Notes under the pieces: model-generated
Database searches by the model: none
The model's input: the letters and a program-made list of their open reading frames with translations, nothing else
What the model was told of the DNA's origin: nothing
Program-made: the position numbers and the translations under genes
Source: Methylobacterium bullatum
GTDB taxonomy: Bacteria; Pseudomonadota; Alphaproteobacteria; Rhizobiales; Beijerinckiaceae
Direction of reading: 5' to 3'
Assembly: GCF_014845095.1 (NCBI RefSeq)
Contig: NZ_NKUG01000036.1
Coordinates: 1-64,000, forward strand
DNA: 64,000 nt
Part shown: piece after piece, positions 6,094 to 29,682 of the stretch
Position numbering within the stretch: the first letter of the stretch is position 1
Layout of the letters: every line of letters starts with the position of its first letter

Positions 6094-8568
6094 ATGACAG
6101 ATCAAGAACCGGAACGGCCGAAGGCCCCTGACGTGCCGGATGCCCGAACCGCCGCCCGCGAAGCCGGGCAGGCGGCACGTGTCCTGTTCAGGCATCTCGG
6201 CTTCCTCCTCGCCACGGCCTTACGCGGCCTCGCGCGGGGCTCGCTTTCGACGGGGCGCGCTGCGAGGCGGATGCTCGGCACCCTCGGTTCGAGGCTCACC
6301 GCACGCACCACGTCAGCGCGAGCGAGCGACACGGGCACTCCGCCTGCGGCAGGGATCGCTCCGGCGGCGCAGACGCCACAATCGGGCTGGCGCGGCCGTC
6401 TGCGGCAACGGCCCTACCTCGCTGCCGGTCTTGCGGCCCTCGCCCTGCCGCTGGTCTTCGTCGCTTGCCTCGTCCTCTACAGTTTCGCGACCCTGCCCCC
6501 GCTCGGCGGGGTGGTGCCGGAAGGCGGCCAGCGCGCCCTCACGGTGGAGGCGGATGACGGGAGGGTCTTCGCCACGCGCGGCGCCTTCCAGGGCCAGAAG
6601 CTCACGGCGGCGGACATGCCCGCTCATCTCGCCCAGGCGGTGGTCTCCATCGAGGACCGGCGGTTCTACTCGCATTGGGGGGTCGACCCGCGCGGGCTGG
6701 TGCGGGCGCTCTGGCGCAACACCGTGAGCGGCGGCGTGCGCGAGGGCGCGTCCACCATCACGCAGCAATATGTCCGGCTCACCTCCCTCACCCAGGAGAA
6801 GACGCTGCGCCGGAAGATCCAGGAAGCGTTCCTGGCCCTGCGCGTGGAGAGCACGATGTCGAAGGAGGACATCCTCCTCGGCTATCTCAACACCGCCTAT
6901 TTCGGGGCCGGCGCCTATGGCATCGACGCCGCGTCCCGGCGCTATTTCGGCAAGGGCGCGAAGGCGCTGACGCTGCCCGAGGCGGCGATGCTGGCGGGCC
7001 TCGTCCGGGCGCCGTCGCAATTGGCGCCGACGCGCAATTTCGGCGGCGCCAAGGAGCGCGCCGACATCGTGCTGCAGACCATGGTCGAGACCGGCGCGAT
7101 CACCGCCGCCGAGGCCGACAAGGCACGCGCCGAGACGATCACCCTGCGCACCCCGCCCGAGACGCCGCCGGGCACCAACTACTTCCTCGACATGGTGTCG
7201 GCGGACGCCAAGCGCCTGTCGGACACATCCGGCGACGTCACCCTGCGCACCACCCTGAACCTCGATCTGCAGAGCCTGGCGGAGGGCGTCATCGCCCGGC
7301 GGCTCGATGCGGAAGGGGCCAAGAAGAAGGCGAGCCAGGGCGCCATGGTCGTCCTGAACAAGGAGGGCGCGATCCTCGCCATGGTGGGCGGGCGCGATTA
7401 CGAGGACAGCCAGTTCAACCGGGCGACCCAGGCCAAGCGCCAGGCCGGCTCACTGTTCAAGCTGTTCGTCTACCTCACCGCCTATGAGAAGGGCCTCTCG
7501 CCGGAGACGGTGCTGGTGGACCGGCCGATCCAGATCGGCGATTGGGAGCCGCAGAATGCGAGCGGCCGTTTCCGGGGAGCGGTCCCCCTCCGCACCGCCT
7601 TCGCGCAATCGATCAACACCATCGCCGCGCAGCTCGCCGATGAGATCGGCATGGCCTCCGTGATCGAGACCGCACGCAAGCTCGGCGTCACCTCCGACCT
7701 TCCCAACGTACCGAGCCTCGCCCTCGGCTCGGCCGAAGTCTCCCTGCTGGAGATGACACGGGCCTATGCCGGCGTGCTGGCGAGCGCCCAACCCCTCGAC
7801 ACCTACGGCGTCCATGCCATTCGCGGCCCCGGCCCAGACCCGCTCTACCTGCGCCCCGACGCCAAACCGACGACGCCGCTGCCGGGCGAGAGCCGCGCAA
7901 TGATGCTCGATTCGCTTCAGGCCGTGGTGGATAGCGGAACCGGGCGGGCGGCGCGGATCACCAACCTCGCGGTGGGCGGCAAGACCGGGACGACGCAGGA
8001 TTACCGCGACGCCTGGTTCGTCGGCGTGACGCCGGACCTCGTCGTCGGCGTCTGGGTCGGCAACGACGACAATTCCTCCATGAACAAGGTCGGCGGCGGC
8101 GACCTGCCGGCGGCGATCTTCAAGGACTTCACCCAACGCGCCACCGTGCAGATGGCGTCACGGCGCAAGCGCCCCTCGGCCGCCCGCGCCGAGCCGGCCC
8201 CCGCCGCCAAGGAGACCAGTGCGGCCGGGGCGTTGCGCGGCGTGCCGGAGGTGATCGATACCGGAACTCTCTCGTTCCGTGGCCGGACGGTGCGCCTGCT
8301 GGGCGTCGATGGCGAGCGCGGCGCCCTGGCGCGCCAACTCGCGCGCTATCTGCGCCGGCGCGAAGTCGTCTGTGCCCCGGCGGCCGGCGAGGCGACCGAC
8401 GAGGCGCAGCCCGCGGGCCTGCGCTGCCAGATCGACGGCGACGACCTCGCCTCCCTCATCCTCACGGCCGGCGGTGCCCGCGCGTCTGAGGATGCCCCGT
8501 CGGACCTCCTGGCAGCGGAGGAGCAGGCCCGGTCCGAGCGGGCCGGTTTGTGGCAGCGGGAGCGGTAG
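6094..8568 (+). CDS. Class A penicillin-binding protein (PBP1A-type) with a C-terminal SNase-like extension
   Basis: The protein has 824 residues. A cytoplasmic N-terminus is followed by one transmembrane helix near 108-130. The GT51 transglycosylase domain contains SIEDRRFYSHWGVDPRG, EGASTITQQYVR and RKIQEAFLALRVE. The transpeptidase domain has SLFK (S453), a second motif SIN (S506) and KTGTT (K630). These catalyse glycan polymerisation and peptide crosslinking of peptidoglycan. Residues from about 720 to 824 are unusual: they read like a staphylococcal-nuclease-like fold (RGRTVRLLGVDGERG, a VVCAP strand, DLASLILTAGGARA, then EEQARSERAGLW). The usual SNase catalytic residues are not evident, so this tail is probably a binding module. 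The ATG at 6094 has only a weak Shine-Dalgarno. Confidence 0.9.
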   Translation: MTDQEPERPKAPDVPDARTAAREAGQAARVLFRHLGFLLATALRGLARGSLSTGRAARRMLGTLGSRLTARTTSARASDTGTPPAAGIAPAAQTPQSGWRGRLRQRPYLAAGLAALALPLVFVACLVLYSFATLPPLGGVVPEGGQRALTVEADDGRVFATRGAFQGQKLTAADMPAHLAQAVVSIEDRRFYSHWGVDPRGLVRALWRNTVSGGVREGASTITQQYVRLTSLTQEKTLRRKIQEAFLALRVESTMSKEDILLGYLNTAYFGAGAYGIDAASRRYFGKGAKALTLPEAAMLAGLVRAPSQLAPTRNFGGAKERADIVLQTMVETGAITAAEADKARAETITLRTPPETPPGTNYFLDMVSADAKRLSDTSGDVTLRTTLNLDLQSLAEGVIARRLDAEGAKKKASQGAMVVLNKEGAILAMVGGRDYEDSQFNRATQAKRQAGSLFKLFVYLTAYEKGLSPETVLVDRPIQIGDWEPQNASGRFRGAVPLRTAFAQSINTIAAQLADEIGMASVIETARKLGVTSDLPNVPSLALGSAEVSLLEMTRAYAGVLASAQPLDTYGVHAIRGPGPDPLYLRPDAKPTTPLPGESRAMMLDSLQAVVDSGTGRAARITNLAVGGKTGTTQDYRDAWFVGVTPDLVVGVWVGNDDNSSMNKVGGGDLPAAIFKDFTQRATVQMASRRKRPSAARAEPAPAAKETSAAGALRGVPEVIDTGTLSFRGRTVRLLGVDGERGALARQLARYLRRREVVCAPAAGEATDEAQPAGLRCQIDGDDLASLILTAGGARASEDAPSDLLAAEEQARSERAGLWQRER

Positions 8569-19023: not shown

Positions 19024-19923
19024 TCACGCGAGGGCGGCCAGGGCCTGGAACACGATGGCATGGCGGGCGGCCAGGGCATCGATATCGGTGGCGTAGCCGC
19101 CGCCGATCACCGCCACGAGGGGAATGCGGCGCCGGCGCGCTTCTCCCACGACGAAGCGATCCCGTGCGGCGAGGCCCGCATCGGTGAGGGCCAGGCGCCC
19201 AAGCCTGTCGTCCACGTGCGGATCGACCCCGGCATTGTAGAATACGATGTCCGGCGAGAGCCCGTCGAGGAGGCCCGGCAGATGCGCGCCGAGGACGGCG
19301 GCGTAGGCCGCGTCGTCGACGCCGTCGACGAGGCCCACATCGAGGTCGCCGGGGATCTTGCGTGTCGGATAGTTCTTCTCGGCGTGGATCGAGAAGGTGA
19401 ACAGGTCCGGCGAGCCGGCGAGACAATCGGCGGTGCCGTCGCCCTGGTGCACGTCGCAATCGACCACCAGCGCCCGGCGGATCGTGCCCTCGTCCTGGAG
19501 CGCCAGGGCGGCGACCGCGACGTCGTTGAACACGCAGAAGCCCGCGCCGGTCTCCCGCCGCGCATGGTGGCTGCCGCCGGCGGCGCTGCCGGCGAGGCCA
19601 TGGACCAGCGCGAGCCGCGCTGCCGCGAGGGTGCCGCCCGCGGAGGCACAGGAGCGGGCGACGACGCTCTCGTCCACCGGAAGGCCGATCTCGCGCTCGA
19701 TCTCCCGCGAGACCAAACAGGAGAGGACCGCATCGACGTAATTCGAGCGGTGCGCGCGGTTCAGCAGGGCCGCATCGGCGGGCTCCGGCCTGACGAAACC
19801 GGAAGGGGCGAGGCCGAGCGCCGCCAGCGTTTCGGCGAGGCGACCGTATTTCCGCATCGGGAACCGGTGCCCGTCCGGCAGGACGGCCTGATAGGCGGGG
19901 TGGACGACGATGGATGGAATCAT
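19024..19923 (-). CDS. Histone-deacetylase-family amidohydrolase
   Basis: The protein has 299 residues, typical for the compact bacterial HDAC-like family. The metal and catalytic residues are in GGSHHARRETGAGFCVFND (the paired histidines) and VVDCDVHQGDGTADCL (zinc ligands Asp and His), with a later NAGVDPHVDDRLGRLALTD carrying the third ligand Asp and IGGGYATDID near the C-terminus. Characterised relatives remove acetyl groups from polyamines or proteins; the substrate is not determined. The ATG at 19923 begins directly at the family N-terminus (IPSIVVHPAY), so the seven-residue extension was dropped. It converges with the TetR gene with 6 bases between. Confidence 0.9.
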   Translation of the reverse strand: MIPSIVVHPAYQAVLPDGHRFPMRKYGRLAETLAALGLAPSGFVRPEPADAALLNRAHRSNYVDAVLSCLVSREIEREIGLPVDESVVARSCASAGGTLAAARLALVHGLAGSAAGGSHHARRETGAGFCVFNDVAVAALALQDEGTIRRALVVDCDVHQGDGTADCLAGSPDLFTFSIHAEKNYPTRKIPGDLDVGLVDGVDDAAYAAVLGAHLPGLLDGLSPDIVFYNAGVDPHVDDRLGRLALTDAGLAARDRFVVGEARRRRIPLVAVIGGGYATDIDALAARHAIVFQALAALA

Positions 19924-27394: not shown

Positions 27395-28303
27395 ATGACC
27401 GAGCCGAGCCTCCGCCGGGATGCAGCGAATCCAGGAGATTTCGCGCCACCCTTCGCCATCGACGAACCGAGGGAGCACACGCTTCCGTTCGTGTTCAACA
27501 CGCCTCATTCCGGTGCGGTCTACCCGAAGGCCTTCCTGGCGGCGTCGCGCCTCGACCCGTTGGCGCTCCGGCGCTCGGAGGACGCCTATGTCGACAGGCT
27601 GTTCGCGCCGGTGGTCGATCTCGGTGCGCCGCTGATGCGCGCGAACTTCCCGCGGGCCTATCTCGACGTGAATCGCGAGCCCTACGAACTCGACCCACGC
27701 ATGTTCGACGGACGCCTCCCGCCCTTCGCCAACACCCGGTCCATGCGGGTGGCCGGCGGCCTCGGCACGGTGCCGAGGGTGGTCGCCGACGGCCAGGAAA
27801 TCTACCGCGGCCGGTTTCCCGTCGAGGAGGCGGTCGCGCGGATCGAGGAACTCTACAAGCCGTATCACCGCACCCTGCGCGGTCTCGTTCAGCGCACGGC
27901 CCGCGTCTTCGGCCACGCCATCCTCATCGATTGCCACTCGATGCCGTCATCGAGCCTGCTGCGCGAGGAGGATTCGAAGGCCGATTTCGTTCTGGGCGAC
28001 AGGTTCGGAACGAGCTGCACCCCAGCCCTGATCGCGGCGTTCGAATATCATTTGCACGCGCGCGGCTTCCGCACCCTGCGTAACAAGCCCTATGCGGGCG
28101 GCTTCATCACCGAGCATTACGGCGAGCCGAATATCGGCCGTCACGCGCTCCAGATCGAGATCAATCGCGGTCTCTACATGAACGAGGCCACCCTCGCGGT
28201 CACGCAGGGCTTCGCCGATCTGGTCTGGATGCTGCGCGAGGTGGTGAAGGCGGTCGCGGAGGAGATGGACAGCCTCACGCCGCGCAGAATGGCGGCCGAA
28301 TAG
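27395..28303 (+). CDS. N-formylglutamate amidohydrolase family protein
   Basis: The protein has 302 residues. The family signatures are FVFNTPHSGAVYP at the N-terminus, RANFPRAYLDVNREPYELDP, the metal-site histidine region ILIDCHSMPSS, and the end GGFITEHYGEP with HALQIEINRGLYMNE. The enzyme hydrolyses N-formyl-L-glutamate to glutamate and formate, the last step of one histidine degradation route. No hut genes are nearby. It would release formate in a strain equipped with formate dehydrogenase, but that link is inference. Confidence 0.88.
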   Translation: MTEPSLRRDAANPGDFAPPFAIDEPREHTLPFVFNTPHSGAVYPKAFLAASRLDPLALRRSEDAYVDRLFAPVVDLGAPLMRANFPRAYLDVNREPYELDPRMFDGRLPPFANTRSMRVAGGLGTVPRVVADGQEIYRGRFPVEEAVARIEELYKPYHRTLRGLVQRTARVFGHAILIDCHSMPSSSLLREEDSKADFVLGDRFGTSCTPALIAAFEYHLHARGFRTLRNKPYAGGFITEHYGEPNIGRHALQIEINRGLYMNEATLAVTQGFADLVWMLREVVKAVAEEMDSLTPRRMAAE

Positions 28304-28407
28304 GCCCCGGCTTTCTGCCCCCGTCCATCCAGGGTTCGAGCGCGCCTGAACGGCTGCACTGAGCCCGACCCCACCGAAGCCCAACCCCACCGAAGAATGG
28401 ATCGCCC

Positions 28408-28436
28408 AAGAAAAAAGGCCGCTCCGAAGAGCGGCC
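28408..28436 (-). terminator. Rho-independent terminator of the sRNA (and possibly galU)
   Basis: The stem GGCCGCTC pairs perfectly with GAGCGGCC over 8 bp across a 4-base loop, at 28417-28436. On the minus strand it is followed by TTTTTT (28416-28411). The T-run places its direction with the minus-strand genes. Confidence 0.85.
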
Positions 28437-28500
28437 CGAAGTCTAGGGAGGAAACGCCCAAGAAGGGCTGCGGGACCGCGACGCCATCGCGATCTCGCAA
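28411..28500 (-). ncRNA. Candidate trans-acting sRNA of the alpha-r8 (MmgR) type
   Basis: Read on the minus strand, the region has a small hairpin (GCCC-TTCTT-GGGC), then a single-stranded stretch with the exact 10-mer TTTCCTCCCT, then a strong terminator hairpin and a T-run. That order and motif match my recollection of the alpha-r8 sRNA family, typified by Sinorhizobium MmgR. The 10-mer contains an anti-Shine-Dalgarno sequence. A candidate promoter lies upstream: TTGCGT near 28530 and TACTTT near 28510, giving a transcript of roughly 80-90 nt. It is downstream of galU on the same strand with about 130 bases between. Family membership is inference by eye. Confidence 0.55.
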
Positions 28501-28627
28501 TGCACAAAGTAAAGTGCGTCGCACAAAACGCAAGAGTGTTTCGCCGTCGAAAGGCTGCACACCGCGCATGCCCCGCCCGCGTCCGCTGCACCATACGGCG
28601 CAGCTTGCAGGTCTCCTCCGTTTTACC

Positions 28628-29494
28628 TCACGATTCGCTGAGCAGACGGGCGATTTCGGCTTTCAGCGGCTCGGCCAGATCCTTGCGCTCGAGCGCGTAG
28701 GCGATGTTCGCGGTGAGGAAGCCGAGCTTGGAGCCGGTATCGTAGGTCCGGCCCTCGTAGCGCATGCCGAAGAAGGATTGCTTCTCGGCGAGTTTGATCA
28801 TGGCGTCGGTGAGCTGGATCTCGCCGCCGGCACCCTTCTCGCCATGCTCCAGGATCGAGAAGATCTCCGGCTGGAGGATGTAACGCCCGGAAATGATGAA
28901 GTTCGACGGGGCGGTGCCCTGTTTGGGCTTCTCGATCATGCCGTTGATCTCGAAGGTCTGCCCGTAGGTCTCGCCGACGCCGACGATGCCGTACTGGTGC
29001 GTCTCTTCGGGCTTCACCTCTTCCACGGCGATGACGTTGCCGCCATGGCGCTCGTAGGCCGAGAGCATCTGCTGCATGCAGCCCTTGCTCAGCATGTCGG
29101 GCAGCAGCACCGCGAAGGGCTCGTCGCCGACGATCTCGCGGGCGCACCAGACCGCATGGCCGAGGCCGAGGGGGGCCTGCTGGCGGGTGAAGCTCGTCTG
29201 CCCGGCGGCCGGGAGATCACGCTTCAACTCCTCGTAGATCGCTTCCTTGCCGCGCTCCTGCAGCATGCGGTCGAGTTCGAAGGCGATGTCGAAATGGTCC
29301 TCGATCACGGCCTTGCCGCGGCCGGTGACGAAGATGAAATGCTCGATTCCGGCCTCGCGCGCCTCGTCCACCACATGCTGGACGACCGGCCGGTCGACCA
29401 CGGTGAGCATTTCCTTCGGGACGGCCTTGGTGGCGGGCAGGAAGCGGGTACCCAACCCTGCGACAGGCAGGACGGCTTTACGAATCGGTTTCAT
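28628..29494 (-). CDS. galU: UTP-glucose-1-phosphate uridylyltransferase
   Basis: The protein has 288 residues. The nucleotide-binding N-terminus [24 protein letters not shown] is the GalU signature. Later motifs include [34 protein letters not shown] and [19 protein letters not shown]. The enzyme makes UDP-glucose from UTP and glucose-1-phosphate, supplying polysaccharide, glycolipid and envelope sugars. The ATG at 29494 was chosen over a TTG one codon upstream. It faces galE across 188 bases, so UDP-glucose synthesis and epimerisation genes are divergent. UDP-glucose could also serve the GT21 enzyme. Confidence 0.95.
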
Positions 29495-29682
29495 CAAGCG
29501 GGACCCGGTCTCTTAAAATGCGGTGGGAACAACCCGGAGGCGGAGGACGATAGCACGTTGTCGCGATCTCGCGAGCAAGAACAAAACCATTTCCACCCCC
29601 GACTCAGCCTAACGCGCCGCATGATCACACGGAGGGTTTGAGGTATATCTTCCGCGAAGTCGGCGGGAATGGAAGTGGGGCC

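Follow-up and report, generated by a model that had tools for sequence, protein, structure and literature searches.

Between the gene for N-formylglutamate amidohydrolase (FGase) and a galU-like gene of Methylobacterium bullatum lies a gap for which a small regulatory RNA had been proposed from the sequence. The locus raises the question of whether this gap holds an RNA gene of its own, to which family such a gene belongs, and what its promoter and its pairing motif suggest about its control and action. The window analysed here is the whole stretch of 64,000 nucleotides (NZ_NKUG01000036.1, positions 1 to 64,000). The gap has the 324 bases given in the preliminary description, running from the FGase stop at 28303 to the last base of the galU-like gene at 28628, and its minus strand very probably carries the gene of a regulatory sRNA, a Methylobacterium representative of the known MmgR (alpha-r8) family.

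Family membership and genomic neighbourhood

In a cmscan search of the whole window, the Rfam model RF00519 (suhB/mmgR, the alpha-r8 family) covers 28401-28475 on the minus strand with 75.8 bits against a cut-off of 41 (E 6.7e-14), and the match is full-length, taking in all 77 model positions (1-77). The assignment to the alpha-r8/MmgR family, for which the preliminary description had proposed a covariance-model search, is thereby borne out. The model R1 matches 28405-28512 with 131 bits, the window copy (L001) being among R1's own training rows, while SorY (RF02651) reaches 30 bits over 28409-28500, far below its cut-off of 111 bits. Besides a score over the gathering cut-off, the locus features a single-stranded UUUCCUCCCU behind a weak hairpin, a Rho-independent terminator and an FGase neighbour. 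The sRNA gene is placed at 28410-28501 of the minus strand on the basis of RF00519, R1 and the folding z-score; its transcript is predicted to measure about 92 nt, with putative 5' and 3' ends.

The convergent FGase gene occupies 27395-28303 of the plus strand (PF05013, 1.3e-75), and its protein is closest to those of Methylobacterium (97% in sp. E-045). Upstream of the sRNA, on the minus strand, lies the galU-like nucleotidyltransferase gene (28628-29497; PF00483), for which the earlier name galU presumably fits. The bases 28405-28512 are 100% identical to a 2.8-Mb Methylobacterium bullatum record labelled plasmid 1, a label which may be doubtful at such a size. All 80 FGase loci kept have homologues of the window's FGase and response regulator, which we take to be cpdR, and by model R1 the sRNA is present at 62 of them. 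In the published account, most species have one alpha-r8 copy adjoining FGase (PMC12559287). The earlier placement next to galU holds for the gene upstream here; the usual partner is FGase, and galU accompanies the sRNA only in the Methylobacterium loci examined. Among the 38 Methylobacterium/Methylorubrum loci (L035-L072), the exact 10-mer and galU occur together in 24, and both are absent from the stretch in the other 14 (L036, L038, L040-L045 and L067-L072, with short flanks in L040 and L041), as if the sRNA and galU had been lost or moved jointly. At the 42 loci L073-L114, galU was not found by tblastn of the fetched stretches. Beside the FGase gene of Microvirga puerhi (L079) there are two alpha-r8 copies, at 6952 and 7888 (minus strand), about 940 bases apart.

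As it shares its strand with galU and lies about 150 bases past the end of that gene, and as no E. coli-type promoter was found in the scan, the element might be just the 3' UTR and terminator of galU, processed or read through and devoid of a promoter of its own. This is improbable in view of the 38 of 62 sRNA-bearing loci which fall outside the L035-L072 block and in which tblastn detected no galU, of the conserved positions of the upstream operators described below, and of the further sRNA copies elsewhere in this genome. Taken as an alpha-r8 gene in its own right, the locus clearly belongs to a known family and occupies the site usual for it, and control of the S. meliloti type has apparently been kept, to judge from the motifs, here with two operator-like sites. 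The sRNA gene itself is an expected family member; less ordinary are its extra hairpin and the high number of copies that a genome can have.

Predicted structure of the RNA and its conservation

The hairpin, the 10-mer and the 8-bp terminator with T6 described earlier are all present on the minus strand within 28411-28540. The weak family hairpin GCCC-UUCUU-GGGC (28456-28468, minus strand) is seen in both the sequence and the predicted fold, and is followed on the minus strand by GUUUCCUCCCUAG, which contains the 10-mer UUUCCUCCCU (= TTTCCTCCCT) at 28454-28445. The 10-mer is unpaired in the predicted fold and would be the Shine-Dalgarno-pairing site. Behind it stands the terminator, GGCCGCUC-UUCG-GAGCGGCC followed by T6 (28436-28411, minus strand), with an 8-bp stem; the scan places the Rho-independent terminator and its T run at 28410-28437 and gives it nine pairs, eight of which are those noted before. 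On the 5' side a further hairpin is predicted around GCGAUGGCGUCGC (28469-28499, minus strand), outside the pairs of the Rfam model and based on the fold and on changes seen on both sides of the stem. The transcript is modelled as probably about 92 nt long with an additional 5' hairpin, whereas MmgR of S. meliloti is described as a 77-nt RNA (PMC7143759, PMC12559287). The folding energy, another check proposed at the outset, turned out favourably: the predicted 92-nt transcript (28501-28410) folds with -46.1 kcal/mol (z -4.28), and none of 200 shuffles folded as well.

Conservation was assessed in an alignment (A1) of 53 rows, comprising 47 distinct Methylobacterium copies and six Microvirga-block rows from five loci, without L003 and identical duplicates. 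The 5' extension, left unpaired by the Rfam model, forms a hairpin in RNAalifold, with changes on both sides at columns 18-42 (two sequences), 20-40 (seven) and 23-37 (six), for which the rows broken or gapped number five, none and seven, respectively. The terminator stem is also changed on both sides, at columns 82-97 to 85-94, while the four pairs of the family hairpin never vary in A1 and are uninformative on covariation. Over the whole structure 98.4% of cells are paired and 33 carry changes on both sides; shuffling gives means of 94.8% and 9.7, and sliding the partners gives 43-60% and 0-10, respectively. These figures are to be read in the knowledge that the structure was derived from A1 itself and that the test is consequently biased in its favour. 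Counted by pairs, seven show changes on both sides, a value reached by 45 of 500 shuffles, which counts against the structure. Twelve bases, GCGATGGCGTCG, are invariant in 53 of 53 rows; this is a statement on the aligned rows, exceptions outside A1 being L073, with a T inserted in the conserved hairpin, and the plasmid copy L229, with one substitution. Another plasmid copy (L228) reads GCTC/GAGC in the stem of the second hairpin.

A frame of 14 codons runs from an ATG in the 5' hairpin to a TAG behind the 10-mer, and a dual-function RNA which also encodes this peptide was considered, the frame being open in 55 of the 56 Methylobacterium copies examined, duplicates included. It is open in 8 of 15 Microvirga copies and 2 of 23 others, and three plasmid copies have AAG in place of its stop; moreover, variation across 19 distinct Methylobacterium frames affects four columns at the first codon position, one at the second and three at the third, which is no excess at position 3. 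On this evidence of frame conservation and codon positions the peptide was judged very unlikely.

Putative promoter and PhaR operator-like sites

The -35/-10-like pair of the preliminary description survives as a putative promoter at 28506-28534 of the minus strand, drawn from a comparison of the copies by eye, with CTTGCG (28534-28529) as -35 and TACTTT (28511-28506) as -10; it is weak by the standard measure, a scan of 28200-28800 for sigma-70 sites of the E. coli type having found none. The CTTG is kept at the same distance in many sibling copies and differs in L007, L008, L021, L029 and L034. Because of the -35/-10 pair emerging from this comparison, a transcription start near 28501 is probable.

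The putative -10 is surrounded by two 12-mers, TTGTGCRNYGCR, one at 28526-28515 and the other at 28507-28496, and both match the operator of the PhaR (AniA) regulon (TGCRNYGCASMA, or the core YGCRNYGCR). Site 1, TTGTGCGACGCA (28515-28526, minus strand), stands between the putative -35 and -10, and its complement TGCGTCGCACAA is identical to the footprinted operator of the phasin gene phaP1 of B. diazoefficiens, for which TGCRNYGCASMA is the published PhaR consensus (PMC6201568). Site 2, TTGTGCATTGCG (28496-28507, minus strand), extends over the end of the -10 and the predicted start; it has one mismatch to the B. diazoefficiens consensus (PMC6201568) and conforms to YGCRNYGCR, the core of the motif which is published for S. 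meliloti as NYGCRNYGCRN (PMC12542648). In the same S. meliloti report, PhaR binds the mmgR promoter in EMSA, the shifts are abolished when the palindromes are excluded or mutated, and manX is among the genes bearing such a site (PMC12542648). MmgR of S. meliloti shares with the window copy the family model match, the 10-mer, the terminator and a PhaR-type palindrome in the promoter.

The arrangement is conserved across FGase loci: in all 24 Methylobacterium copies there which have the 10-mer in its exact form, YGCRNYGCR starts at -69 and at -50 relative to it. Upstream of all exact-10-mer FGase-locus copies the 9-mer occurs at least once in 62 of 62 and at least twice in 61 of 62 (the two overlap in L098, L099 and L112), against a background of 0.056-0.085 per 80 nt in the same loci, which are related, so that the counts are not independent. 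Among 32 genus copies taken as best matches from L001-L034, the window's included, 31 have at least one 9-mer and 19 at least two; the two-operator layout is departed from in L002, with one, and L003, with none. Site 2 overlaps the predicted start of the transcript, so that its conservation may in part reflect the needs of the RNA.

Across this genome the 12-mer pattern gives 29 matches against 15 for the reversed control, two places being counted on both strands, and since about 10 of the matches fall inside predicted frames (by a rough script) the pattern alone is not specific. With frames from this script, it also precedes genes for a phasin (PF09361), a 3-hydroxyacyl-CoA dehydrogenase (PF02737), a MaoC hydratase (PF01575) and an EIIA-man protein (PF03610). 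The phasin gene (L158) has, about 40 bases ahead of its start, a perfect palindrome, TTGTGCAGCGCACAA, which from its sequence is likely a PhaR operator. The genome has one match to PF05233 (PHB_acc), which we take to be the PhaR domain. A phaR deletion has been studied in M. extorquens AM1, in work which by its own account left sRNA transcripts aside (PMC6520949). There are, in these motifs, signs that the storage-plastic sensor PhaR controls the sRNA.

Sibling copies, proposed mode of action and wider meaning

In this genome RF00519 finds three copies and R1 adds a fourth on contig C283 (47.6 bits with R1; 28.4 bits with RF00519, below the cut-off), where the copy at 19262-19368 keeps the 10-mer and the GGCGATGGCGTCGCC hairpin. 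In contrast to these four copies, S. meliloti is described as having no alpha-r8 sRNA other than MmgR (PMC7143759, PMC12559287). Across 59 genomes of the genus, this one included, 454 matches were obtained at E up to 0.001, with 3-16 per genome and a median of 7, and 119 genomes outside the genus, from a draw of 121 from the order, gave 0-6 matches and a median of 1. Both counts include below-cut-off matches, with stricter filters in both searches, and weak matches can be due to chance, because the control set also gave matches (in Caulobacter vibrioides and Thermus composti, a single one of which exceeds the cut-off); owing to kinship within the genus the rank test is descriptive only. Multiple alpha-r8 copies have been reported in many genera, with duplication and lateral transfer cited (PMC12559287). 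Among the publication titles listed by literature searches, none deals with these Methylobacterium copies; for alpha-r8 phylogeny, PMC12559287 cites its reference 42. That the window copy is a relic whose expression has been lost is scarcely credible, for although the C283 copy is weaker, the window copy has all the elements of the family and the top score among the copies of the genome.

Matches were also found in 38 of 72,556 plasmid records, 22 of them from Methylobacterium or Methylorubrum. Nine of 15 listed plasmid copies were fetched, six with the exact 10-mer and three with TTTCCTCCCA; no gene is common to the seven annotated neighbourhoods, the remaining two being unannotated there. 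In these copies (L225-L233) no listed feature lies under the match, and six of the records measure 35-53 kb.

Directly established are the family match, the conserved place beside FGase, the conserved structure and the two sequences at the promoter which match the PhaR operator. The mechanism proposed is that the locus encodes a trans-acting alpha-r8/MmgR sRNA, which would be started near 28501 and stopped in the T run. PhaR would repress its gene and release it once titrated by PHB granules, and production of the sRNA under such titration is what the PhaR-type sites suggest. By analogy with its relatives the RNA would bind Hfq, and UUUCCUCCCU would cover the Shine-Dalgarno regions of target mRNAs, lowering their translation, the targets probably being transport and carbon-storage genes. 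The closest parallel is with the SisA-D RNAs of Caulobacter crescentus, which share the 10-mer behind a weak hairpin, the presence of several siblings and, for sisA, the position adjoining FGase (PMC12559287). SisA, with the same 10-mer as the window RNA, is reported to repress an mRNA by 10-mer pairing upstream of the start codon, which compensatory mutations demonstrated in E. coli in the presence of C. crescentus Hfq (PMC12559287); the translational repression predicted in the preliminary description agrees with this. Because of this homology the window RNA should act like SisA, and its 10-mer should repress targets in the same way.

The exact 10-mer complement, AGGGAGGAAA, has six occurrences in the genome. 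Four are antisense to alpha-r8-like copies, namely the three found by RF00519 and the one on C283; the other two lie inside a long open frame (L118) and in an intergenic hairpin that follows a transporter-like gene (L117). With neither of these two at the start of a gene, pairing with the real targets is probably imperfect. SisA-D are titrated by the sponge CrfA (PMC12559287), whereas here the genome-wide search for the exact 10-mer complement alone supported no sponge. The intergenic hairpin of L117 (C270:33744-33753), AGGGAGGAAACGTCTCCCT, is complementary to the 10-mer; it was rejected as a sponge, the complement being changed in the closest match (G008) and the matches in G004 and G003 ending before it. 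Patterns placed before ATG gave 14 places against 20 for the reversed control with GGGAGGAA-N(1-11)-ATG, and 14 against 4 for the control with AGGGAGGA-N(2-12)-ATG, so that only the AGGGAGGA pattern is in excess; one place in either list lies antisense to the sRNA copy on C13. Neither of these genome-wide searches singled out a target, and both yielded candidate sites only. A CoA-transferase gene (PF01144) was dismissed as a target, GGGAGGAA being kept here and in 3 of the 29 other genomes with upstream read (30 of 31 searched).

Taken as a whole, the locus is with good confidence best explained as an Hfq-type, Shine-Dalgarno-masking alpha-r8 sRNA which is derepressed when PHB titrates PhaR. 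In the aligned copies the hairpin segment GCGAUGGCGUCG is as invariant as the target-pairing 10-mer, and this hairpin may be a second binding site. A joint reading, which we hold tentatively and with more doubt than belief, is that of an amplified, partly plasmid-borne Methylobacterium alpha-r8 family of up to 16 members in a genome, which has gained the hairpin around GCGAUGGCGUCG as a new 5' module, perhaps a second binding site, and whose FGase-side copy would be placed through two operators under PHB-titrated PhaR, tying the level of the storage polymer directly to broad Shine-Dalgarno masking.

The published pair of PhaR and an alpha-r8 sRNA is now placed in methylotrophs studied for chemical production, with exact coordinates available for testing. 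The findings raise the question of why a genus should have up to 16 siblings with one pairing motif, which the Caulobacter work leaves open for four, and the extra hairpin and the expansion in copies are the parts worth following.
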